From Candidatus Krumholzibacteriia bacterium (lineage in GTDB: Bacteria > Krumholzibacteriota > Krumholzibacteriia > JAJRXK01): 40,464 nucleotides of DNA. The position numbers and the translations under genes were made by a program. Where the stretch lies: assembly GCA_035268685.1 (NCBI GenBank), contig DATFKK010000066.1, forward strand, positions 1 to 40,464, written 5' to 3'. The notes beneath the pieces are model-generated. The model ran no database searches and was not told the origin of the DNA. It was given only the letters and a program-made list of their open reading frames with translations. Below, one piece after another: positions 7,830-38,081 of the stretch (position 1 is its first letter; every line of letters begins with the position of its first letter).

Positions 7830-9503
7830 TCAGCGCCGGACCTGGACGTTCAACACGATTCGCAGGGGCGTGTCGTCGTCGAGCATGTCGGCGTCGATGG
7901 TCACGGGGATCTCCAGCACCCCGGACCGGCCCAATGTCGCCACCGAACCACTCACCGGTGCCGAGCCAGTGGTCGGCAGGCGCCTGGGATCGGTGATCAA
8001 CTCGAGGTCGTCGTCGGACGCTTCCTCGGGTCCGTCCGCGTCCGCGTCGTCGGGCGTGGGAACGGTCTCGGGGTCGTCCTCCGCCACCGGCGCGACGGGA
8101 CCTCCGGTCGTCGGCTCGAAGGCGCCGGACCCCTCGACGGTCTTGAGTTCGGCGAAGACGTCGACGTCGTGCTCGACCGCGAATCCCTCGCGGTCGGGCG
8201 ACCCGGCCTCACGGTCCGGCGGGAGCTCCGCTGCCCCGGGCGACGACCCGTCGTCGGCCGCGGTCGCGCCTTCCTCGTCCGTGACGGGCGAAACCGCGCC
8301 CGAGGCCCCGATCCCCTCGAAGAATCGATCCAGGCGTTCGGCCAGTGGTCGCCGCTCCTCGGGCGACGGTTCGGGTACCGGCTCGGATGACGGTTCGGGC
8401 GACGGGTCGGGCACCGGCTCGGGCGCGCGGTCGGGGCCGTCGTCGGGCACCGGGTCGACGGATCGGCTCGACGCGGCGTCGATGGTCGCCAGGTCGTCCC
8501 GTTCGTCCAGAGAGCTGAGCACCTCGTCGACGAGTCCTCCGAGATTCTCCGAATCGAGGACGGAAGGGTCCACCGAACCCGAGGATTCCGGGTCGTTTCC
8601 GGGACCGCTCTCGTCGACCGTCCGCTGTGGCCCGGACGGTTCGGGGCGCGCGGGTTCGGGAGCGGATGCGTCTTCGTGCGCAGTGGCCGACGGCACGGGA
8701 TCGCCCGGTGTCGCGGCCGAGGACGACGGGGCGCCGGAGCCGGGGTCCAGTCCGAGGATCGCGCCGAGCGGATCGGAGGGTGCCGCGCTCCGCATCGAAC
8801 CGGCATCGGCACCGATGGCCACCGACTCCGGTTCGGGTTCGGGCTTGTCGACGTCCTGCAGGCACAGGGCGATCGAATCGCCGAAGAGCGAGACGTTCTC
8901 GTCCTCACCGGCGCCCGCCTGCGTCCCCGTGAGCTTCGTGTAGATCAACCGGGAACCCTTGTGCAGGGTCTCGTAGACGCCTTCGCCGGTCAGGGCACAG
9001 GCTTCGAAACTCGGCAGGCCCCGTGGGTTGAGCCGTGTCTCGAGGTCGGCCACCGACATGCAGTTCGGCAGGTCCCGTTTGTTCCACTGCATGACCAGCG
9101 GCAAGGAGTCGGGATTCATCCCCAACTCCTGCAGGTTGTCCCGCAGGTTCTGCAGGCTCTCGAGGTTGTCCTGCATGCGTCCCGGTTCGGAGTCGGCCAC
9201 GAAGACCAGACCGTCCACACCCTTCAGCACCATCTTCCGTGTGGCGTTGTAGTGCACCTGTCCCGGAACGGTGTAGAGCATGAACCGCGTGCGGAATCCG
9301 TCGATCATCCCCAGGTCGAGAGGAAGGAAGTCGAAGAAGATCGTGCGGTCGGCCTGGGTGCGCAGCGACACCATCTTGCCGGAGTACTCCACGGGGATCT
9401 TCGAGTAGATCCACTCGAGGTTCGTGGTCTTCCCGCTGAGCGCGGGGCCGTAGTAGACGATCTTCGCGTTGATTTCCTTGCCGCTGTAATTGTAGACGAC
9501 CAT
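7830..9503 (-). CDS. MglA-like small GTPase with long acidic C-terminal extension
   Basis: Residues 1 to about 195 match the MglA/Arf-like bacterial GTPases that set cell polarity. The P-loop is GPALSGKTTN (19-28), Arg53 lies in DRTIFFDFLPL, the switch is TVPGQ with Gln82, and the base-recognition motif is NKRD (141-144). Residues from about 200 to 495 are a low-complexity Pro/Glu/Asp/Ser-rich tail, and the last 30 residues return to an ordered, beta-like segment (LEIPVTIDADML, IVLNVQV). Known MglA proteins are about 195 residues, so this one (557) is nearly three times as long. P-loop position 21 is Ala where M. xanthus MglA has Gly. The ATG at 9503 was chosen because it starts exactly where MglA proteins start (MVVYNYSGKEIN). 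No roadblock protein (MglB) is adjacent. It probably switches a localisation or motility process; this is inferred. Confidence 0.88.
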   Translation of the reverse strand: MVVYNYSGKEINAKIVYYGPALSGKTTNLEWIYSKIPVEYSGKMVSLRTQADRTIFFDFLPLDLGMIDGFRTRFMLYTVPGQVHYNATRKMVLKGVDGLVFVADSEPGRMQDNLESLQNLRDNLQELGMNPDSLPLVMQWNKRDLPNCMSVADLETRLNPRGLPSFEACALTGEGVYETLHKGSRLIYTKLTGTQAGAGEDENVSLFGDSIALCLQDVDKPEPEPESVAIGADAGSMRSAAPSDPLGAILGLDPGSGAPSSSAATPGDPVPSATAHEDASAPEPARPEPSGPQRTVDESGPGNDPESSGSVDPSVLDSENLGGLVDEVLSSLDERDDLATIDAASSRSVDPVPDDGPDRAPEPVPDPSPEPSSEPVPEPSPEERRPLAERLDRFFEGIGASGAVSPVTDEEGATAADDGSSPGAAELPPDREAGSPDREGFAVEHDVDVFAELKTVEGSGAFEPTTGGPVAPVAEDDPETVPTPDDADADGPEEASDDDLELITDPRRLPTTGSAPVSGSVATLGRSGVLEIPVTIDADMLDDDTPLRIVLNVQVRR

Positions 9504-9859
9504 GTCGCTCGATCCGGATCGGAGGAATCGGAACGCCCTCGGGAACGCACGGGTAGCGCCGGAAGGACTGGCAAGCGTCGTGCCACGGGGCGTTGCCGAA
9601 CCGCGCGCCCGCCGGGGCTCGGCGGACGAGTGGCGGGGAACCGCGCAGCCCGTGCGCGATGTGCCCCGGTCCGGGCCCCGTTCCGTGCGGACACCCTGGA
9701 TCGACCGGCCCCGATCGGGCACCAGGCGCCCTTCTCCGCGCTTCCGCCCCCGCGCGTGTCGAGCGGCACCTCCCTTGCAGACCCGCCCGGTGTATCGGCC
9801 GCCCCGAGAGCCCGGATTCCCGACCGGGACGGGTCGAGCGCGCCGCCTGGGAGGAATGG
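9504..9859. other. Divergent intergenic region
   Basis: 356 bp between the MglA-like gene (leftward) and the unknown gene at 9860 (rightward). It must carry the 5' signals of both, but I find no convincing -35/-10 pair on either strand. Open frames run through it on both strands, but they are Arg/Pro/Gly-rich with no initiation signals and look like GC-rich noise. Confidence 0.4.
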
Positions 9860-10351
9860 ATGACAACGACGACGAACACCGACCGGATCCTCACGGAGAT
9901 GTTCAGCCGACTCCTGAACATCCGGGTCAGTCCGGCACAGGTGAAGCGGCTCACGCACGTGATCGACGGGGTGATCGACAAGGTCGAGGGGTCGATGGAC
10001 CTGGAGACGTCCCAGGGTCGGAACACCTTCCGCGCCCTCGTCTGTTCGATGGTGGTCCACGGCTGGGGCCTGGGAATGCATCCCGACGGGAACCCGGCCC
10101 AGGACCTCGACGGCAAGGAGATCGAGGTCAAGGTCTGCAAGGACATCCTCGTCCCGATGGGATCCCTGCAGTCGCTGCGCTACGTGAAGAAGGACAAGTA
10201 CGGGCGAGTGAAGAAGGCACTCTTCGAGCCCGATCAGAACGCCCGGATCCGCGGCCACATCGACAGCATCCTCGACGACATCGCCACCCGTCGGTGGCCC
10301 GACGAGAACGGCGATCCCGAGAACGACGGGGACCCGACGGATCCGAACTGA
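9860..10351 (+). CDS. Hypothetical protein, divergent to the MglA-like GTPase
   Basis: 163 residues, one of only two plus-strand genes. A strong ribosome-binding site (GGGAGGA) sits just before the ATG, which fixes the start. The composition is balanced (Lys, Asp, Ile), unlike the spurious frames around it. The N-terminal half appears helical (ILTEMFSRLLNI, VKRLTHVIDGVIDKVEG). The middle has a basic segment (YVKKDKYGRVKKALF) that could contact nucleic acid, and the tail is acidic (about the last 18 residues). I recognise no family; it is not a roadblock/MglB domain. It ends tail-to-tail with the kinase gene at a shared hairpin. Confidence 0.65.
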   Translation: MTTTTNTDRILTEMFSRLLNIRVSPAQVKRLTHVIDGVIDKVEGSMDLETSQGRNTFRALVCSMVVHGWGLGMHPDGNPAQDLDGKEIEVKVCKDILVPMGSLQSLRYVKKDKYGRVKKALFEPDQNARIRGHIDSILDDIATRRWPDENGDPENDGDPTDPN

Positions 10352-10371
10352 CCGGCGCGCCGCGGGTCAGT
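10347..10371. terminator. Bidirectional hairpin between convergent genes
   Basis: A perfect 7-bp inverted repeat, ACTGACC (10347-10353) and GGTCAGT (10365-10371), with an 11-nt GC-rich loop. Each arm contains the stop codon of one of the two converging genes. There is no U-tract on either side, so any termination would not be a classic intrinsic one. Confidence 0.45.
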
Positions 10372-11215
10372 CCACGCGGAGGGGCGCCGACGGCACCAGG
10401 TCCTTCTGCAGGACGATCGTCCGCCCACCGTCGTGGTACTGCACGGAATCCATGATCGACTCCATCAGGAACAGACCGCGGCCACCTTCACGGCTGCGGT
10501 TGTCCGCGTGCAGCGGATCACGCACGTCGGAACGATCGAAGCCTCGCCCTCGATCGCGAACCTCGAGTTCGATGGCCGTCGGCGTCAGGGCGGCGCGGAA
10601 TTCGACGGCGGTCGAAGCGTCCCAACCGTTGCCGTGCTTCATCGCGTTGGTCAGTGCCTCGTCGACCACCAACGGAAGCTGCGACCGCACGAAGTCGTTG
10701 GGATGACCCATGGCGTCGGCGCGTTCGCAGACCGAACGCACCACGCCGGGGATCGCCGAGGTGGTCGCCGGGACCTCGAACTCGACCGTCTCGCGACGCA
10801 AGCCGCGGACCTCGCCGGGGAAGAGCGCGGCCAGGTGACAGCGGTCGTGGAACATGACCTCGAGGCGATGCGGGGCCAGTGGAAGACTCTCGACGCGTCC
10901 GATCCCCTGCTGCAGGAGTTCCCGGTGACGCTGCGGTTCGATCGCAGTGATCGCCAGGAACACGTCGATCCGGCGCGGGGAGAGCTGGAGCGCACGTAGA
11001 CGTTGCACGTCGAGGACCGAGGCGTCGTGGGCCGCGACGGCCAACCGGAACGACTGGTCGCACTCGGTGCTCTCGACGAAGTCGACGAAGGCCTCGAGGG
11101 ACTCCCACTCGCGCACGGTCCAGTCCACCGCACCCGGCAGGGCGAGAACGGCCGCCGCCGCCGTGCGGTCGAGGACCAGGAGGTCCAGGTGATGCGCAAG
11201 AGGAGTCACGGACAT
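10367..11215 (-). CDS. RsbW-like GHKL kinase with degenerate receiver-like N-terminus
   Basis: 282 residues. The C-terminal part (about 150-275) is a HATPase_c_2/RsbW-type ATP-binding domain: N-box VDEALTNAMKHGNG, G1 box DRGRGFD and G2 box EGGRGLFLME. Such domains act as anti-sigma factors or serine kinases that inhibit a partner by binding. The N-terminal part (about 1-125) has the alternating strand-helix pattern of a receiver (DLLVLDR, WTVREW, VFLAITA). It lacks a recognisable acidic pocket and the KP lysine, so it would be a pseudo-receiver; this is inference from pattern only. No sigma factor or STAS antagonist is adjacent, although a STAS-like gene lies in the dcw cluster. It is cytoplasmic. 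Confidence 0.8.
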   Translation of the reverse strand: MSVTPLAHHLDLLVLDRTAAAAVLALPGAVDWTVREWESLEAFVDFVESTECDQSFRLAVAAHDASVLDVQRLRALQLSPRRIDVFLAITAIEPQRHRELLQQGIGRVESLPLAPHRLEVMFHDRCHLAALFPGEVRGLRRETVEFEVPATTSAIPGVVRSVCERADAMGHPNDFVRSQLPLVVDEALTNAMKHGNGWDASTAVEFRAALTPTAIELEVRDRGRGFDRSDVRDPLHADNRSREGGRGLFLMESIMDSVQYHDGGRTIVLQKDLVPSAPLRVD

Positions 11216-19167: not shown

Positions 19168-20628
19168 TCAGTCACGCAGACGGCGGAGGAAAGTCGGCAG
19201 ATCGAGATCGTCGCGGTTCGGCAGTCGCCCGCCCTGACCCTCGCTCTCGCCCTCTCCGTTCGATCCGCCTTCGGTGCTCCGGCGGGACTGTCCCCGATCG
19301 CCGAAGGCGCGTGGTGCCGGGGTCTCGGAGGGATCCAGCAGGCGGCGGATACCCTCCTCGCGACGAGCCCTCTCGGCATCGGCGGCGTCTCGGCGGGTCT
19401 CCCCCTTCGGTTCCGGGGTATCTCCGTCGGCGGCTTCCATGGCCCGCAACGGTGTACGATCGGGTTCGGAGCGCGGTGCGTCGACGGGTGTCGGCTCGGG
19501 CGATTCGGCGAAGGTCTCTTCCCGCGGGGCTGGCCGCGGGGCCGGCCGAGGCTCCCGACGGGGGCTCGCACCGAAGGACGCCGCGGCCGCTCGGGGTTCG
19601 GAGTCTTCCCGTCGCGCGGTGGCGCCGCGGGTCGAACGCTCGGCGGTGATGCCGCGCGGCTGCTCGGCCATGTTGCCGAAACCGGTGGCGATGACGGTGA
19701 CGCGCAGGTCGTCCTCGGCGTCGCCGTCGATCACCGCACCAAAGATCATGTTCGCGTCGGCACCGACGGCCTCCTGCACGATGTTCGTGACCTCACTCAC
19801 CTCGTGCAGGCTCATGTCGTGCCCGCCGGTGATGTTCACCAGCACGCCCTGCGCTCCGCGGACGTCGACGTCCTCGAGCAGAGGACTGCTGATGGCCGCA
19901 CTCGCGGCCTCCACCGCTCTGCTCTCGCCCCGCGCGTGGCCACTGCCCATGATCGCGTCGCCCATGCCCGCCATGATGCTGCGGACGTCGGCGAAGTCGA
20001 GGTTCACCAGCCCCGGCACTGTGATCAGGTCACTGATGCCCTTCGTGGCCTGATACAGGACGTTGTCGGCGACACGGAAGGCTTCGAGCAGGGGTGTTCC
20101 CGCCGGGACCACCTTCAGCAGGCGGTCGTTGGGGATCACGATGATCGTGTCGACCTCTTCGCGCAGTTCCTCGAGCCCGTCCGTCGCCTGCCCCCCGCGC
20201 TTGCGGCCCTCGAAGGTGAAGGGCAGGGTGACGATGCCCACCACCAGCGCGCCCAGCTCACGAGCCACGCGCGCGACCGACGGAGCGGCACCGGTTCCGG
20301 TGCCTCCGCCCATGCCGGCCGTGACGAAGACCATGTCCGAGCCGTTGAGGGCCTCGGCGACCTGCGAGGAGTCCTCCTCCATGGCCCGCGAGCCCACGCG
20401 GGGGTCGCCACCACTCCCGAGGCCACGCGTGACCTGCGTCCCGATCTGGATGCGCGTGGTCGCCGCGCTCTCCTGAAGGGCCTGGGCATCGGTGTTGACC
20501 GCGATGAACTCGACCCCGGTCAGTCCCGAGTCGACCATGCCGTTCACGGCGTTGCCACCCGCGCCGCCGACGCCGGCGACCCGGATCCGGGCCTGCCCGG
20601 AGAATTCCTCTTCGAACTGCAGCTTCAT
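19168..20628 (-). CDS. ftsZ: Cell division protein FtsZ
   Basis: Tubulin-like GTPase that forms the Z-ring. The GTP-binding signature GGGTGTG is at 107-113 within [14 protein letters not shown], and the T7 loop NLDFAD at 209-214 supplies the catalytic Asp residues (Asp211 and Asp214). The globular part ends near residue 320. A linker of about 150 residues, very rich in Arg, Glu and Pro, follows, and then the conserved C-terminal peptide [11 protein letters not shown] that binds FtsA and other tethers. At 486 residues it is about 100 longer than E. coli FtsZ because of the linker. It lies 51 bp after ftsA and 3 bp before the TPR gene. Confidence 0.98.
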
Positions 20629-31863: not shown

Positions 31864-33791
31864 CGTCCCTCCCGACCGAAGGCGACCTGGATCCGCGCGC
31901 CCGGACGCATGGGCGTGCCCGGGGGTGGAATCTGCGCCACGACCGATCCCTGTTCGGGAAGACTCCCCAGGGACTCTCCCCAGGAGGCACGCACGGCCAG
32001 TTCGCGGATCTCGGCCACACTGCGACCGACGAGGTGCGGTGCCTGGATCATGGCAGCGGGAGTCACGGTCTCGCGAACGCCCTCGTCGAGCAGCCTCGTG
32101 CTCGCCGCGACCTCGCGCACGATCGACGCGAAGACCGGCGCCGCCACACCACCCCCGGTCGCCGTCCGACCGGGCGCGCGATGGAACACCACGACCATCA
32201 CCAGTCGCGGATCGCGCGCGGGAGCGAGGCCGATGAAGGTCGGATTGTAGATCCCGTCGATGTAGCCGCCGCCCCGTTCGGCGACCTGCGCGGTCCCCGT
32301 CTTGCCCCCGACCTCGAGGCCGGCAACTCGTGCCCGGCTGCCGGTTCCGTAGTCGGTGGCCACGACGTCGGTCGTCATGGCGCGGAGACGTGAGGTGACC
32401 TCGGCACCCACGACGCCCCGCCGGCGCACGACGGGCGGGAGGGACTCGACCGTCCCGTCGGTGCGTTCGATCGTGCTCACGAAGCGCGGCCGTCTCAGGT
32501 TCCCGTCACCCAGAACGGCAGCGGCTCCGGCCCCGAGCTGGAGCAGGCTGACCGCGACCTCCTGGCCGATCGCCAGCGTACTCTTCGTACGCTTCGACCA
32601 GCGCGGGTCGTCGGGGCTGCGCAGGATTCCGGCGGTCTCGCCGGGGAAGCCCACGCCGGGATATTCGCCGAAGCCGAAGGCCCGGAAGTCGTCGTGGATC
32701 TCGGTCCGCTCGAGGAGCTCGAGCGCGGCGGTGGCGAAGACGATGTTGCTGCTGCGCGCGAAGGCATGACGGAGGGACACGCGTCCCACCGGGTGCACGT
32801 CGCGGATCGTGTAGCCGCCGGGGAACTCCTTCTTGCTGCGATACTGGTCCGGATGCTCGCGCATGCCGTCGAAGACCGTCGACGTGTCGCAGACACCGCG
32901 CCGCAGCAACGACGCGGCCGTGAAGAGCTTGAACACGCTTCCGGGCTCGAAGACGTCGGTGGCCGGCATCACGCGCCAGCGACTCATCTCCGGATCGTCC
33001 GGAAGGGGTTCGGGATCCGCGGGCGTCTGCGCCAGGGCGATCACGTCCCCCGTCGAGGGATCGAGTACCATGGCCTGCGCCCGGTGCGCTCCGGCCTCGA
33101 GCCGCGCGCTCTCCAGTTCACGCTCCACGATCGCCTGCACGTGCAGGTCGACCGTGAGACGCAGATCGGCACCGTCGACGGGCGGCTCCAGGACACGACG
33201 GTCCCGCACGATGCGTGCGGCGTCGCGGCGCTCGAGCACCCTTCCCGGCTCACCCGACAGAACGTCGTCGAACACGGCCTCGAGTCCCGTGACACCGTCG
33301 CCGCTCTCGCGCACCAGACCGAGGAGCGAAACGGCCACGTCCCCGTGCGGGTACACCCGCCGTGCTCGACGTTCGAAGGAGACCGGCGCGACCTCGAGCA
33401 GTTCCTTGCGTGTGGCAGCGTCGATGCGGAATTCACCGAGCACGACATGGCGCACGTCGCGCCGCAAGCGGCGATCGATCTCTTCCACCGTGCATCCGAG
33501 CAGTGCCGCCAGTCGTGCGACGTCTCCCTCGCGACGCCAGCGGGTGGGTCGGGACACGCCCACCACCGTCCACTCCTCGGTCGCGGCCAGCACCCGCCCC
33601 GACCGGTCGAGCAGGCGCCCACGGCGTGCCGGCTCGTCGACGACATCGGTCGAGCGCACCTGCGCCCGCGCACGCCAGTGATCGGAACGGACGACCTGGA
33701 TCCATGCGAAGCGCCCGAGCAACGCGACGAAGGCGAGCGCGAACACGGTCGCGACGACGGCGAAGCGCCCGGTCGAGTAGCGTCGACTCAT
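31860..33791 (-). CDS. ftsI: Septal transpeptidase FtsI (class B PBP) with C-terminal PASTA domain
   Basis: Cross-links septal peptidoglycan, working with FtsW. It has 643 residues: a short cytoplasmic N-terminus, one span (AVVATVFALAFVALLGRF), a PBP dimer domain, and a transpeptidase domain with catalytic Ser285 in SVFK, the SSN motif at 347-349 and KTGT at 497-500. Residues from about 580 to 640 form one PASTA domain (APHLVGRSVAEIRELA, GSVVAQIPPPGT, GARIQVAFG). PASTA tails are best known in SpoVD/PBP2x-type proteins of Gram-positives. E. coli FtsI (588 residues) lacks one. The ATG at 33791 overlaps the ftsL stop. Confidence 0.96.
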   Translation of the reverse strand: MSRRYSTGRFAVVATVFALAFVALLGRFAWIQVVRSDHWRARAQVRSTDVVDEPARRGRLLDRSGRVLAATEEWTVVGVSRPTRWRREGDVARLAALLGCTVEEIDRRLRRDVRHVVLGEFRIDAATRKELLEVAPVSFERRARRVYPHGDVAVSLLGLVRESGDGVTGLEAVFDDVLSGEPGRVLERRDAARIVRDRRVLEPPVDGADLRLTVDLHVQAIVERELESARLEAGAHRAQAMVLDPSTGDVIALAQTPADPEPLPDDPEMSRWRVMPATDVFEPGSVFKLFTAASLLRRGVCDTSTVFDGMREHPDQYRSKKEFPGGYTIRDVHPVGRVSLRHAFARSSNIVFATAALELLERTEIHDDFRAFGFGEYPGVGFPGETAGILRSPDDPRWSKRTKSTLAIGQEVAVSLLQLGAGAAAVLGDGNLRRPRFVSTIERTDGTVESLPPVVRRRGVVGAEVTSRLRAMTTDVVATDYGTGSRARVAGLEVGGKTGTAQVAERGGGYIDGIYNPTFIGLAPARDPRLVMVVVFHRAPGRTATGGGVAAPVFASIVREVAASTRLLDEGVRETVTPAAMIQAPHLVGRSVAEIRELAVRASWGESLGSLPEQGSVVAQIPPPGTPMRPGARIQVAFGREGR

Positions 33792-34210
33792 CGCTCACGC
33801 TCCGCGGCCAGCGAGGCCCGCACGCGTCCGAAGCGGTCCATGGTGTCGGCCAGACGCTCGACGAACCCCGAACCGGCCTCCTCCACGGGGGCGGGCAGTG
33901 CGACGAAGGAGCGCCGCGCGGGATCCGAGTCCACCAGTCCCAGTTCGCGACGCGCGCGCTCGGCGACCACCTCGTACGACCGGGCGTGCAACGCTCGCGT
34001 CTCGGCCGCGTCGCGCAGGACACGTTCGCGCTCCACGTGTTGCTCGAGTTCGACCGCCTGCTGCCGCAGACCGACCAGGCGCTGGGTCTGCAGGGTGGAC
34101 CAGACGAGGACGACCAGCACGACGAGCAGCGTGATCGAGGTGAACGAGCCCAGGAAGCTCCGGGCACGACGTGCGAAACGGCCCCGTGTTCCCGACGTGA
34201 TCGATTTCAT
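33788..34210 (-). CDS. ftsL: FtsL-like cell division protein
   Basis: 140 residues: a basic N-terminus, one membrane span (about residues 25-42, SITLLVVLVVLVWSTL) and a periplasmic coiled coil (LVGLRQQAVELEQHVERERVLRD). The sequence is not conserved enough to prove FtsL, but the topology and the position between rsmH and ftsI are diagnostic. It would form the FtsQLB complex that activates FtsWI. The C-terminal 50 residues go beyond the usual coiled coil. It overlaps both neighbours by 4 bp. Confidence 0.85.
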   Translation of the reverse strand: MKSITSGTRGRFARRARSFLGSFTSITLLVVLVVLVWSTLQTQRLVGLRQQAVELEQHVERERVLRDAAETRALHARSYEVVAERARRELGLVDSDPARRSFVALPAPVEEAGSGFVERLADTMDRFGRVRASLAAERER

Positions 34211-35130
34211 CGCCGCTCCCCCGCCCGCAGGCGCGCCGAACGCGCGCGCGGATTGCGGCGCAACTCCTCGTCGCCCGGCAACACGGGCTTGCGCGTGAGT
34301 TCCACCATGGTCGGTTCCTCGGTCTGCGGCTCGGGCAGATGCCGGCTCCCCCGCGGCACACGACCGCTGGTCCGACGCAGCATCTGCTTCACACGACGGT
34401 CCTCGAGACTGTGATAGCTGATCGCGACGAAACGACCGGCAGGCCTCAAGCGCTCGGGGACGCAGGCCAGCACCGTCTCGAGTTGGGTCAGCTCGTCGTT
34501 CACGGCGATCCGCAGGGCCTGGAAGACGCGCGCCAGTTCGGGCTCGGGCCGGCGACCCCGCGGCAGCGTCGAGCGCACCAGGTCGGCCAGTTGCGTCGTC
34601 GTCCGCAGCTCACCGGCCCGGGCACGATCGACCATCCGCCGGGCGAGGCGGCGCGCCCCGCGGACCTCGCCGTACTCGCGCAACCACCTCTCCACCGTAT
34701 CGGCATCGGCCGCCTCGACGCGTTGCCAGGCCGGGTCGCCGCCCTCGGGACCGAAGCGCAGGTCCAGAGGGCCTTCGAGGCGGAAGGCGAATCCCCGCTG
34801 CGGATCGTCGAGCTGGTCGCTGGAGAGTCCGAGATCCATCAACACACCGTCCACACGGTCGTGTCCGAGTTCGTCGAGAGTACGGGCGAACGAGCCGAAA
34901 TCACGTGGCACGGCCACGTAGCGGTCGCCGTGGGCCTCGTCGAGCCCACGGGTGCGTTCGATGGCGACGGGGTCACGGTCGAATCCGATCACGGTGGCTC
35001 CGGCCTCCAGCAGGGCGCGGGCGTGCCCCGCTCCGCCCAGTGTGAGATCGGCAACCACGCGGCCGCGAGCCGGAGAGAGGAACTCGAGGACCTCCTCGAG
35101 CATCACCGGCACGTGCCGCGTCGGACCCAC
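34207..35130 (-). CDS. rsmH: 16S rRNA (cytosine-1402-N4) methyltransferase RsmH (MraW)
   Basis: SAM-dependent enzyme that methylates N4 of C1402 in 16S rRNA. It has 307 residues. It starts with the family's HVPVML segment, then the SAM loop DLTLGGAGHARALLE, DRDP, DGVLMDLGLSSDQLDDPQRGF and the C-terminal FVAISYHSLEDRRVKQ. The start is GTG at 35130, 2 bp after the STAS-like gene's stop, so it probably depends on that gene for translation. This junction differs from the usual mraZ-rsmH arrangement. Confidence 0.97.
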   Translation of the reverse strand: MGPTRHVPVMLEEVLEFLSPARGRVVADLTLGGAGHARALLEAGATVIGFDRDPVAIERTRGLDEAHGDRYVAVPRDFGSFARTLDELGHDRVDGVLMDLGLSSDQLDDPQRGFAFRLEGPLDLRFGPEGGDPAWQRVEAADADTVERWLREYGEVRGARRLARRMVDRARAGELRTTTQLADLVRSTLPRGRRPEPELARVFQALRIAVNDELTQLETVLACVPERLRPAGRFVAISYHSLEDRRVKQMLRRTSGRVPRGSRHLPEPQTEEPTMVELTRKPVLPGDEELRRNPRARSARLRAGERR

Positions 35131-35132
35131 GA

Positions 35133-35636
35133 TCAGTGCACGAGGTCGCTGTGCGCTTCGAGCCGGCCCCGCGCCACCGACGGTGGACTCTCGGCCACGC
35201 GCGACACGGCGGCGCGTGCGGTCTCCACGTCGGCGAGAGCGGGGATCCGGTGTTCATGACCGCACGCGAGCACCAACAGGTTGGCGAGGTAGGGACCGAG
35301 GGCGACCCAGATCGCCACGACCCCCCGCTGTCGCCAGCGCTGCTCGTACCCGGCCAGATCGTGCGCCACGTCCAACGGAATGTGCTGGAGCTGCGTCGCG
35401 TCGAGCCCGAGGAAGTGGGTGTGTCGGGAGGAGAGCCCCCGCAGGACGCGACGATCGAGCTCGCGCAGCGTGCGTCCGCTCAATCGACCCGTCAGGCGCG
35501 CGTGGATCCAGTTGGGCGCCTGCCGCGTGAGCAGGAATCCGCCCCAGCGCTCGTGGGTCCACGACGACGTGGTCGCCGTCGCGAGAGCGCCTTCTTTCGA
35601 GTCCACGGCCGTCTGTCGGTGGGTCACCTGGTGCAT
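35133..35636 (-). CDS. STAS-like protein inserted between mraZ and rsmH
   Basis: 167 residues. Residues from about 42 to 148 follow the STAS pattern: ARLTGRLSGRTLRELDRRVLRGL, LGLDATQLQHIPLDVAHDL, then RQRGVVAIWVALGPYLANLLVLA and RIPALADVETARAAV. The site where a phosphorylatable serine normally sits (D-S-x-G) reads HIPLD, so switching by an RsbW-type kinase on serine is not expected. No membrane span is seen. The ATG at 35636 has a GAGGGAAC site upstream, and its stop lies 2 bp before rsmH. It is a probable cytoplasmic protein-interaction module. STAS membership is my pattern reading and needs a profile search. Confidence 0.65.
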   Translation of the reverse strand: MHQVTHRQTAVDSKEGALATATTSSWTHERWGGFLLTRQAPNWIHARLTGRLSGRTLRELDRRVLRGLSSRHTHFLGLDATQLQHIPLDVAHDLAGYEQRWRQRGVVAIWVALGPYLANLLVLACGHEHRIPALADVETARAAVSRVAESPPSVARGRLEAHSDLVH

Positions 35637-35643
35637 CGTCGAC

Positions 35644-35671
35644 GTTCCCTCGTGCCGATGGTTCCCTCGTG
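35644..35671 (-). repeat. Two 11-bp direct repeats upstream of the STAS-like gene
   Basis: CACGAGGGAAC on the minus strand occurs twice (35661-35671 and 35644-35654) with a 17-bp period. The copy nearer the gene contains the presumed ribosome-binding site. The other may be chance or a protein-binding half-site. Confidence 0.4.
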
Positions 35672-35764
35672 ACGGTGACCGCGAGCCGGTTGCCGATCCC
35701 GGTCCGCGGATGACCCCACGCGGCTACCCTCCGTGGCCACCGCGCGGGATCACCGTCGAGTATT

Positions 35765-35816
35765 GCCGGGGGCCGCGAACCCGCACCCCGCGCGGACGTT
35801 GTCCGCGACCCCCGGC
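35765..35816 (-). promoter_or_regulatory. Possible mutually exclusive RNA hairpins after mraZ
   Basis: In the 222-bp gap between mraZ and the STAS-like gene. A 13-nt arm at 35804-35816 can pair with 35765-35777 (12 of 13 positions). Part of the same arm (35801-35807) can instead pair perfectly with 35791-35797 (7 bp, 3-nt loop). The two structures exclude each other. No U-tract follows. It could be an attenuator-like leader or chance in GC-rich DNA. I see no promoter or gene in the rest of the gap. Confidence 0.35.
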
Positions 35817-35858
35817 TCCCCTGAAACGATCCCCCTTCGTTCGACGCAGCGTCTCGGC

Positions 35859-36356
35859 TCAGCCGTACAGCGCGTCGTCGATCGAAGAATCCTCCTGCGC
35901 CGCCTCGCTCTCGAGACGGAAGAACGTGTCGGGATCCCATAGCTCCATGAGCTGTCGCGTGCCGACCACGAGCACCTCACCGGTCAGGGAGGCGGACTCG
36001 AGCAGCGGTTGCGGCACCGTCAAACGCCCCTTCGGATCCAAGCCGGCGATCTCGACCGAGCTGTACTGCTGACGGGCCTGCCACTGCCGGTCGGCCCCCG
36101 AGACCTGGCGCTGGCTCCGCTGCTGCTCCACCACGCGGTCCCAGGTCTCGTAGGGGATCACCTGCACGAAGCCCTGCTGCCCCTTCCGCAGGACCAGCAG
36201 CGAATCGTCGCGCGGCTCGTCCCCGTTGGCGGCGACTCCCAGCGCCCGACGGTAGACGGACGGCAGCGTCAGACGCCCCTTGGCGTCGAGCTTGAGGCGG
36301 AAACGGCCGTAGAAGTGGCCGACCCCGTCCTGCCTGCTCGCCGACTCGCGGTCCAT
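35859..36356 (-). CDS. mraZ: Transcriptional regulator MraZ
   Basis: DNA-binding repressor of the dcw operon, forming ring oligomers. It has 165 residues with two SpoVT-AbrB-like halves: FYGRFRLKLDAKGRLTLPSVYR near the N-terminus and VEIAGLDPKGRLTVPQPLL in the second half. It is about 15-20 residues longer than typical MraZ, through an insert near residue 42-50 (ANGDEPRDD) and an acidic C-terminal tail (AAQEDSSIDDALYG). The start ATG at 36356 has GAGGGAG just upstream. It is first in the dcw operon and probably autoregulates through the iterons at 36411-36450. Confidence 0.96.
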   Translation of the reverse strand: MDRESASRQDGVGHFYGRFRLKLDAKGRLTLPSVYRRALGVAANGDEPRDDSLLVLRKGQQGFVQVIPYETWDRVVEQQRSQRQVSGADRQWQARQQYSSVEIAGLDPKGRLTVPQPLLESASLTGEVLVVGTRQLMELWDPDTFFRLESEAAQEDSSIDDALYG

Positions 36357-36410
36357 CGACTCCCTCGATCTACGCCAAGAAGCGTCTTATTATGGAGTTA
36401 TGGATGAAAT

Positions 36411-36450
36411 CCCTTTATTGCCCCTTTTGGCCCTTTTCGGCCCACACGCA
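36411..36450 (-). promoter_or_regulatory. Candidate MraZ operator: four 10-bp-phased GGG iterons
   Basis: On the minus strand four consecutive decamers each end in GGG: TGCGTGTGGG, CCGAAAAGGG, CCAAAAGGGG and CAATAAAGGG. The exact 10-bp period equals that of known MraZ boxes (TGGGN with 5-bp spacers in E. coli; AAAGTG-type decamers in mollicutes). The block starts at the -10 element of the proposed promoter and lies in the leader before mraZ. It is also unusually AT-rich for this window. Confidence 0.65.
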
Positions 36451-36478
36451 GTCTCCCCGAGCCCACTGCTGCTGTCAA
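36450..36478 (-). promoter_or_regulatory. Candidate dcw promoter upstream of mraZ
   Basis: Perfect TTGACA (36473-36478), 17-bp spacer, then GAGACT (36450-36455), on the minus strand. Transcription would start near 36443, inside the first iteron, leaving a leader of about 87 nt. A second possible -10, CATAAT (36391-36396), lies closer to mraZ with only TAAAGG as -35; it would place the iterons over the -35 instead. Confidence 0.5.
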
Positions 36479-36539
36479 CCCCTTGTTCGGGCGACCATCA
36501 CAAAATCCGGAGAACGGCTCGAACGGCCCGGAACGACGA

Positions 36540-36566
36540 CGCCCGCCGGGGTTCGGCCGGCGGGCG
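36540..36566 (-). terminator. GC-rich hairpin ending the polysaccharide operon
   Basis: A perfect 10-bp stem, CGCCCGCCGG (36540-36549) with CCGGCGGGCG (36557-36566), and a 7-nt loop. It lies between the stop of the membrane glycosyltransferase and the dcw promoter, where a terminator is expected. The downstream sequence TCGTCGTTCC is only mildly T-rich. Confidence 0.6.
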
Positions 36567-36621
36567 CGGATCGGGTGGGACACGGTGGGAGGGCCCTCGC
36601 GGGCGGGCGCGGATCCGGTGG
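36559..36621. repeat. 20-bp direct repeat, one mismatch
   Basis: Copies at 36559-36578 and 36602-36621 differ at one base and are 43 bp apart, both in the non-coding gap before mraZ. The first copy includes the right arm of the terminator hairpin, so the second could offer a competing arm. The 36357-36629 gap otherwise holds the dcw promoter, iterons and hairpin. Confidence 0.6.
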
Positions 36622-36629
36622 CGGGCGAC

Positions 36630-38081
36630 TCACCGGTCCTCGACGGCGTACAGCGTGTAGATCACGGGCCGTCCGCGGCTCAGCCCCAGGTTCGCGACCT
36701 GCCGCGAGAGCAACGCGCGCATCCGGACGTCGCCGATCTCCGTGCCCTCGAGAACGGCGGCCTCGTAGGCCCGGTCGACCAGGTAGTCCGGACGCTCGAA
36801 GTCCAGGAAGAGGCCCTCGTGCAGAATGGTCGAGTCGTCGACCCGATCGCGAAGGGCATTGATCTCGGGATGGATCAGACCGCCGAGGTCGATCACGCGG
36901 CGTTCGGAACGGTGTCCCACCAGGCCGATGTCGTAGATCGCCACCGTGGCCTCCGGCGGTGTCCTGGTCCGGAGGTGCTCCGCGATGTCGCCCAGCCCCT
37001 CTTCCAGGGTCGCGCCGAAGGCGCTCGCGCTGGGTGCGATCCAGCTCACCGTGAGACCGTACGCCAACAGGGCCTGCAGCGAGAAGGCGTGGACCCAGAC
37101 TCGACGGCGTGAGTCGAGGGAGACCACGAGCACGGCGAGGACGATCACGGCCGGAAGCACGACCTCGAGATATCGGCTGACGACCTGGACGTCGCGCAGG
37201 AGGTAGACCACCGGAAGAGCGACCGTCCATTGCCACCACATCGGTGCGGCCCAGAAGCTGGTGTCGGGTCGCCAGGCACGTCGTGGCCGGCGTACCAGAC
37301 CGACGATCCAGACGACGGCGGGGATCGCTGCCCCCACCGCGAAGACCTGCCCCAGAACCAGGAGGTTGGACGCGAACCTGCCGGGCTGCAGTCCCAGTGG
37401 GGTGCTCTTGGCCCGCATGGTCTCGGGGAGAACGTGCCCGTAGACCGGCAGGGCGTAGACCGCCCAGGCCACGAACGGGAGCACCGCGAGCAGATACACG
37501 TCGCCCCGCGTACGCGCGCGGGGCGTCCGCAGGACGTGGACACCGAACAGTGCCAACAGCAGGAGTCCCTCGGGCCGCACGAGCGGCAGGACACCGAGCG
37601 CGAGTGCGGCCCGCCGCCAGGCGACCGCGTCGACGGGTCGCAACGTGGCGTCCAGGGCGAGCGCCACCAGGAGTGCCGCCAGTGGAGTCTCCATCCCGGA
37701 CGAGGACCAACGCACCAACCACGGCTCGGTGGCGACCACCGCGGTGACGGCCCACGTCACGAGCGGCCGCTCCGCCAGCAGTCGCGACGCGATGCGAACC
37801 AGGACGAAGACCGTCGCCGCTCCGCAGAGGATCCCGAGCCAGCGCAACCACTCGACACTCTCGAGACCGGCCACGACCCCGAGTGCTCCGAGTCCCGCCC
37901 ACAACGGACTGGTGGCCGCGTGCACGGGCTCGCCGGGGTTGAACGAGAGCTCTCCGAGACGGGCCAGGTTGTCGGCGAAGCGCGCGTAGATGTAGCTGTC
38001 GTCGGTGACGTAGTCGGCGTAGACGGGCGCTTGCACCAGGAACAGGAGCAACGCCACCCACGGCGCGTAGCGAGGATTCAT
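36630..38081 (-). CDS. GT-C-type membrane glycosyltransferase
   Basis: 483 residues with about ten hydrophobic spans and a soluble C-terminal domain. After the first span comes the loop VTDDSYIYARFADNLARLG with FNPGEPVHAATSPLW. This resembles the acidic catalytic loop (DDAYI...FNPGE...NPLW) of GT39/AftB-like enzymes that take sugars from polyprenyl-phosphate donors. The reaction and sugar are unknown. The role is probably adding sugars to an envelope glycan on the outer face of the inner membrane. The start is the ATG at 38081, overlapping the FemAB-like stop (ATGA). The C-terminal part (VAIYDIGLVGHRSERRVIDLGGL) is the soluble end common in this group. Confidence 0.85.
   Translation of the reverse strand: MNPRYAPWVALLLFLVQAPVYADYVTDDSYIYARFADNLARLGELSFNPGEPVHAATSPLWAGLGALGVVAGLESVEWLRWLGILCGAATVFVLVRIASRLLAERPLVTWAVTAVVATEPWLVRWSSSGMETPLAALLVALALDATLRPVDAVAWRRAALALGVLPLVRPEGLLLLALFGVHVLRTPRARTRGDVYLLAVLPFVAWAVYALPVYGHVLPETMRAKSTPLGLQPGRFASNLLVLGQVFAVGAAIPAVVWIVGLVRRPRRAWRPDTSFWAAPMWWQWTVALPVVYLLRDVQVVSRYLEVVLPAVIVLAVLVVSLDSRRRVWVHAFSLQALLAYGLTVSWIAPSASAFGATLEEGLGDIAEHLRTRTPPEATVAIYDIGLVGHRSERRVIDLGGLIHPEINALRDRVDDSTILHEGLFLDFERPDYLVDRAYEAAVLEGTEIGDVRMRALLSRQVANLGLSRGRPVIYTLYAVEDR

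Follow-up and report, generated by a model that had tools for sequence, protein, structure and literature searches.

The window (the whole 40,464-nucleotide stretch that was analysed, from a Candidatus Krumholzibacteriia bacterium) contains a dcw operon on its minus strand. The mraZ-rsmH junction at the head of this operon is among the best-known bacterial gene pairs. An earlier note on this DNA had described an open reading frame between these two genes, 2 bp from rsmH, and had read a STAS-like pattern in its product. We confirmed the open reading frame. The features on which our analysis depends are as follows.

36450 to 36478, minus strand: candidate operon promoter, TTGACA-17 nt-GAGACT, 5' of mraZ, read from the sequence.
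36411 to 36443, minus strand: four runs of GGG at a spacing of 10 bp, between the promoter candidate and mraZ.
35859 to 36356, minus strand: mraZ (PF02381, 2.1e-19).
35637 to 35858, minus strand: mraZ-STAS spacer of 222 bp, with repeats and no promoter- or terminator-like site found.
35133 to 35636, minus strand: dcw-linked STAS gene, 167 aa, ATG start, with orthologues in the same place.
35373 to 35384, minus strand: codons of residues 85 to 88 (H-I-P-L), located by counting from 35636, where the ORF begins, and verified on the sequence.
35289 to 35291, minus strand: codon of Tyr116, coordinates calculated from the ORF start.
34207 to 35130, minus strand: rsmH (mraW; PF01795, 5.4e-79), GTG start at 35130.
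10370 to 11215, minus strand: RsbW-like GHKL ATPase (PF13581, 4.5e-24), a possible partner.

The stop codon of the STAS gene lies 2 bp from the GTG of rsmH, and the spacing from mraZ to the STAS gene is 222 bp. Downstream dcw genes with Pfam support are an ftsL/divIC-like gene (33791-34210), mraY, ftsW, murG, and ftsZ (19171-20628). Other ORFs downstream of rsmH were named by reading their translations as a penicillin-binding protein and murE/murF-like proteins. An orthologue of the STAS gene is directly 5' of rsmH in a genome of the same genus (G001, 47% identity) and in one of the same family (G003, 43% by search and 41% when aligned). Between close pairs, dN/dS for the STAS gene was 0.06 to 0.36, and in most of these pairs selection was slightly weaker than on mraZ and rsmH. 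By these substitution ratios, the STAS gene is under purifying selection.

To survey the spacer in relatives, as the earlier note had recommended, we took the mraZ-rsmH region from approximately 90 genomes and read every ORF between both genes. An iterated profile built from the window protein collected 62 sequences at these loci. One of them (L100) is missing its N-terminal part and was omitted from the alignment, which has 61 rows. Counting only genomes of the class in which a single contig holds both mraZ and rsmH, the order mraZ-STAS-rsmH was present in 57 of 65, with the open frame kept at the same position. G002, from the window's own family, was not counted because its contig ends just 5' of rsmH. 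The eight exceptions were five genomes of family f6 and three of family f7, in which mraZ and rsmH are 53 to 96 bp apart. Only lower-scoring STAS matches were present in the f6 and f7 genomes. Among the loci read, no STAS domain fused to MraZ or RsmH was noticed. Same-place orthologues, class-wide homologues in the gap, and the dN/dS values together argue that this is a real gene and not a chance ORF. A chance or GC-driven ORF was considered and ruled out by the homologues, the fixed spacing, and dN/dS, and a contaminant or lineage-specific insertion was ruled out by synteny across the class. The STAS gene probably belongs to the division operon and has been overlooked there.

The same arrangement recurs in other phyla, so it is not particular to this genome. 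A profile search of 387 genomes, followed by reading of the regions at rsmH, found 18 loci outside the phylum, in 12 families (f9, f14, f32, f35, f71, f76, f99, f137, f147, f180, f189, and f221). We also read a further 80 rsmH loci from other phyla. Of these, 47 had mraZ within 150 bp, 16 had a gap without a STAS gene, 15 had no mraZ, and 2 had a STAS gene. A frequency of 2 in 80 suggests that the arrangement is exceptional outside the class. The same sample bears out the statement that mraZ and rsmH are normally adjacent, because the gap was below 150 bp in 47 of the 65 loci that have mraZ. Two loci from other phyla (L189 and L243) have a different ORF of approximately 100 to 115 aa between mraZ and rsmH, without a STAS domain, that looks like a histidine-kinase dimerisation helix region.

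In two other phyla, every locus read has the arrangement. In the phylum of G106, mraZ-STAS-rsmH was found in three of three genomes. The phylum of G109, which looks like Myxococcota, was represented by 195 genomes, many of them 9 to 13.8 Mb in size. Of these 195, 115 match the profile at 1e-13, and the arrangement was present at all eight drawn loci and in G109 itself. We built a tree from 77 dcw-linked and 29 other STAS proteins (126 columns). The dcw label changed once on this tree versus 25.8 times in shuffles, with a support of 7 for the dividing branch; out-of-class members had been recruited by the family profile, which biases this comparison toward similar ones. A common origin of all the dcw-linked members is likely from these sequences.

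Spacing was compared across 78 dcw-STAS loci. mraZ is 5' of the STAS gene in 76 of them, and the remaining two are at contig ends. The median STAS-rsmH distance is -1, with start codons set by rule, so that single values may be off. For the window, the rule placed the rsmH start further in, and the 2-bp gap refers to the GTG at 35130. In 33 of the 78 loci, 30 of them in family f5, the end of the STAS gene runs 4 nt into the start of rsmH. The mraZ-STAS spacer contains an inverted repeat of 16 nt (35765-35780/35801-35816; 88% complementarity) and, immediately 5' of the STAS start, a tandem direct repeat of 17 nt. Sigma-70 and terminator scans of 35000 to 36700 returned nothing, and the spacer showed no promoter. 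The promoter candidate 5' of mraZ is weak, since a stricter consensus scan did not report it, and a similar sequence is found in G001 and G003. We take the GGG runs to be possible MraZ-binding repeats (operator). L064 likewise has GGG runs at this spacing between a TTGACA candidate and mraZ.

This organization suggests that the STAS gene shares one transcript with mraZ and is translationally coupled to rsmH. The earlier note had gone further and proposed that STAS translation controls entry into the rest of the operon. The anatomy, with a gap of 2 bp here and an overlap of 4 nt in many relatives, is compatible with such control.

The identity of the protein as a STAS protein came from profiles. 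Searched alone, the window protein had no STAS match in Pfam at E≤10 and nothing useful in NCBIfam. Its weak match to DUF5395 (0.16) was dismissed as chance. However, PF01740 was matched by 52 of 61 family members, STAS_2 by 47 of 61, and TIGR00377 (an anti-sigma antagonist model) by 37 of 61. When the 61-member family profile was searched against all PDB sequences, it found SpoIIAA at 2.9e-14 with the entire domain covered. A profile of family f1 only (the window protein and two family orthologues) also had SpoIIAA as its best match in the whole PDB, at 8.6e-4, and hhalign of this three-sequence profile against a profile of 23 other members gave a probability of 96% (E 1.6e-9). These two comparisons avoid circularity. 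The STAS domain spans approximately residues 35 to 147 of the window protein, and residues 1 to 33 are an extension with poor conservation.

Structure prediction, which the earlier note had also recommended, was informative for an orthologue but not for the window protein. Only two sequences were used as input, with AlphaFold for the window protein. Its model was poor (mean pLDDT, 55.6), and the Foldseek list for it, with RuvC on top and STAS proteins next, is not evidence for the fold. For the orthologue L030 (142 aa), one model had a mean pLDDT of 70 and the other four 42 to 46, which is moderate at best. The top PDB matches of the L030 model by Foldseek were SpoIIAA chains, at 6.1e-5 to 4.8e-4. 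The window protein is among the most divergent members of the family. On the evidence of the profiles it is a STAS protein, as first suggested, with a similarity that Pfam does not detect when this one sequence is searched.

The switch in SpoIIAA-type proteins is phosphorylation of a serine (PMC8256260), and conservation of Ser or Thr at that site has been described as widespread in STAS proteins (PMC7367683). The earlier note had read the phospho-serine site of the window protein as replaced (HIPLD), and in our alignment Leu88 does occupy the position of SpoIIAA Ser58. The replacement is not confined to the window. This position is Ser in 96% of the 29 other STAS proteins, versus Tyr in 71% and Phe in 20% of the dcw proteins of the class, and it is Tyr in 77% at the 18 dcw-STAS loci of other phyla. 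Because Phe and Leu also occur at the site, the family as a whole cannot work by phosphorylation of a tyrosine there. Two further positions stand out. His at position 85 is found in 96% of the class and 50% of the other-phylum proteins versus 6% of other STAS proteins. Tyr at position 116 is found in 96% and 61%, respectively, and is not among the commonest residues there in the 29 other STAS proteins. The window protein keeps His85 and Tyr116, whereas the Tyr88 and Arg89 of the family have been lost; its Leu at the phospho-site is probably a derived state. Judging from the loops they occupy, positions 85, 88, and 116 would share one face.

These residues bear on two other explanations. One is that the effect is mainly in cis: translation of the ORF would set how many ribosomes reach rsmH, and its product would be of little importance. 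The stop-start overlaps described above fit this idea, but the low dN/dS and the near-invariant residues on one predicted face across many lineages speak against it, and we consider it very unlikely. The other is that the protein behaves like MlaB and stabilises or gates an envelope ABC ATPase such as FtsE or one of the Mla type. In MlaB, which consists of a STAS domain only, the face that contacts the ATPase MlaF includes Thr52, the equivalent site, near the middle of the interface (PMC7367683). Weak matches to the NCBIfam MlaB model were found in 7 of 61 family members, and MlaB structures were among the Foldseek matches. However, SpoIIAA-type models outscored MlaB in every search and no ABC gene was adjacent at the loci read, so we give this explanation little credence.

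The classical partners of STAS-only proteins are GHKL proteins (PMC8256260), and the earlier note had named the RsbW-like kinase as a possible partner. Its gene is approximately 24 kb from the STAS gene in the window, beyond ftsZ. The N-terminal region of its product was read as receiver-like, and the RsbW-like proteins retain the N, G1, and G2 boxes for ATP binding. Relatives of the gene were found in 11 of 11 class genomes tested. In the window, G006, G008, G010, and G012, it shares the strand of rsmH and lies approximately 19 to 23 kb downstream of it. After ftsZ, the order TPR protein, 696-aa protein, zinc ribbon, RsbW-like protein recurs in families f1, f2, f4, and f6 where the contig allows. 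A 413-aa ORF beside the RsbW-like gene (8908-10146, minus strand) has no Pfam match and is conserved in the class.

With this conserved neighbourhood and the intact boxes, partner switching has to be considered: the unphosphorylated STAS protein would bind the RsbW-like GHKL protein and free a sigma factor or other client. However, the RsbW-like gene persists in two f6 genomes (G012 and G015) that have no dcw STAS gene, and its product therefore cannot be an obligate partner. Other, ordinary STAS proteins in these genomes could serve the kinase, and the dcw STAS protein does not have the phospho-acceptor. Synteny favours the pairing, but we think partner switching unlikely.

Our preferred reading is that the protein is a phosphorylation-independent STAS adaptor, made together with MraZ and RsmH, that has one dedicated partner, with MraZ as first choice. 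We put the probability of this at roughly 0.45. The dose of the STAS protein would follow the division operon through the transcript shared with mraZ and coupled translation with rsmH. The regulatory serine, which in SpoIIAA/RsbV-type antagonists lies on the face that binds the partner, is swapped for a large non-serine residue (Tyr or Phe, and Leu here), and the fixed His and Tyr, in two loops, would be expected to flank that face. Replacement of the serine, together with fixation of His and Tyr, suggests a constitutive binder of a single dedicated partner. That partner may be MraZ, or MraZ on its operator, in which case the STAS protein would tune MraZ autoregulation of the operon. We rank MraZ first, weakly, because in every lineage mraZ precedes the STAS gene at each locus whose upstream DNA is available. 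This is co-occurrence of neighbours, and shared operon position alone would give the same. The STAS gene is dispensable for the operon, because families f6 and f7 keep mraZ-rsmH without it. The comparisons show the family, its position, the coupling anatomy, the replaced residue, and selection; from these we infer constitutive binding, the identity of the partner, and any effect on division.

More broadly, a STAS protein with Tyr for Ser might have joined the division operon long ago and been inherited vertically in many phyla, where, together with MraZ, it would serve specifically to regulate division and cell-wall synthesis; it would have been overlooked because it is absent from the best-studied models. 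We regard this as doubtful, if worth entertaining. A literature search on STAS with mraZ, dcw, or Myxococcus found no description in open-access papers, with many subscription journals outside its coverage. A family of STAS adaptors that has a fixed place in the division operon and lacks the regulatory serine appears to be undescribed, which this search suggests rather than proves. To our knowledge, the signal to which MraZ responds is still unclear. A conserved third gene, apparently cotranslated with rsmH and occurring in a Myxococcota-like phylum, would be a direct handle on that question; Myxococcota include laboratory strains that are amenable to genetics. Replacement of the regulatory serine over a wide range of lineages is also a natural test of phosphorylation-independent STAS binding.

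The dcw STAS proteins most resemble SpoIIAA/RsbV (PF01740; TIGR00377, TIGR02886), which are likewise single STAS domains, align over the whole domain, and are the best profile and model match. Unlike SpoIIAA/RsbV, they have no Ser/Thr at the regulatory site (Tyr/Phe in approximately 91% of the class, Leu in the window), they have the extra conserved His85 and Tyr116, and their neighbours are mraZ and rsmH rather than a kinase and a sigma gene. MlaB is similar in being a stand-alone STAS adaptor, and both probably act by stable binding. However, MlaB keeps Thr52, is part of the MlaFEDB transporter, and is shorter than the dcw STAS proteins; the MlaB model did not match the window protein, and the operon is dcw, not Mla. 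The stressosome proteins RsbS and RsbR share the STAS fold, and both were among the Foldseek matches, but they keep a phosphorylatable Ser/Thr and work with RsbT, and no such genes adjoin the dcw STAS gene. Finally, the standard MraZ-RsmH pair has the same operon head with no gene between, whereas here there is a conserved third gene.
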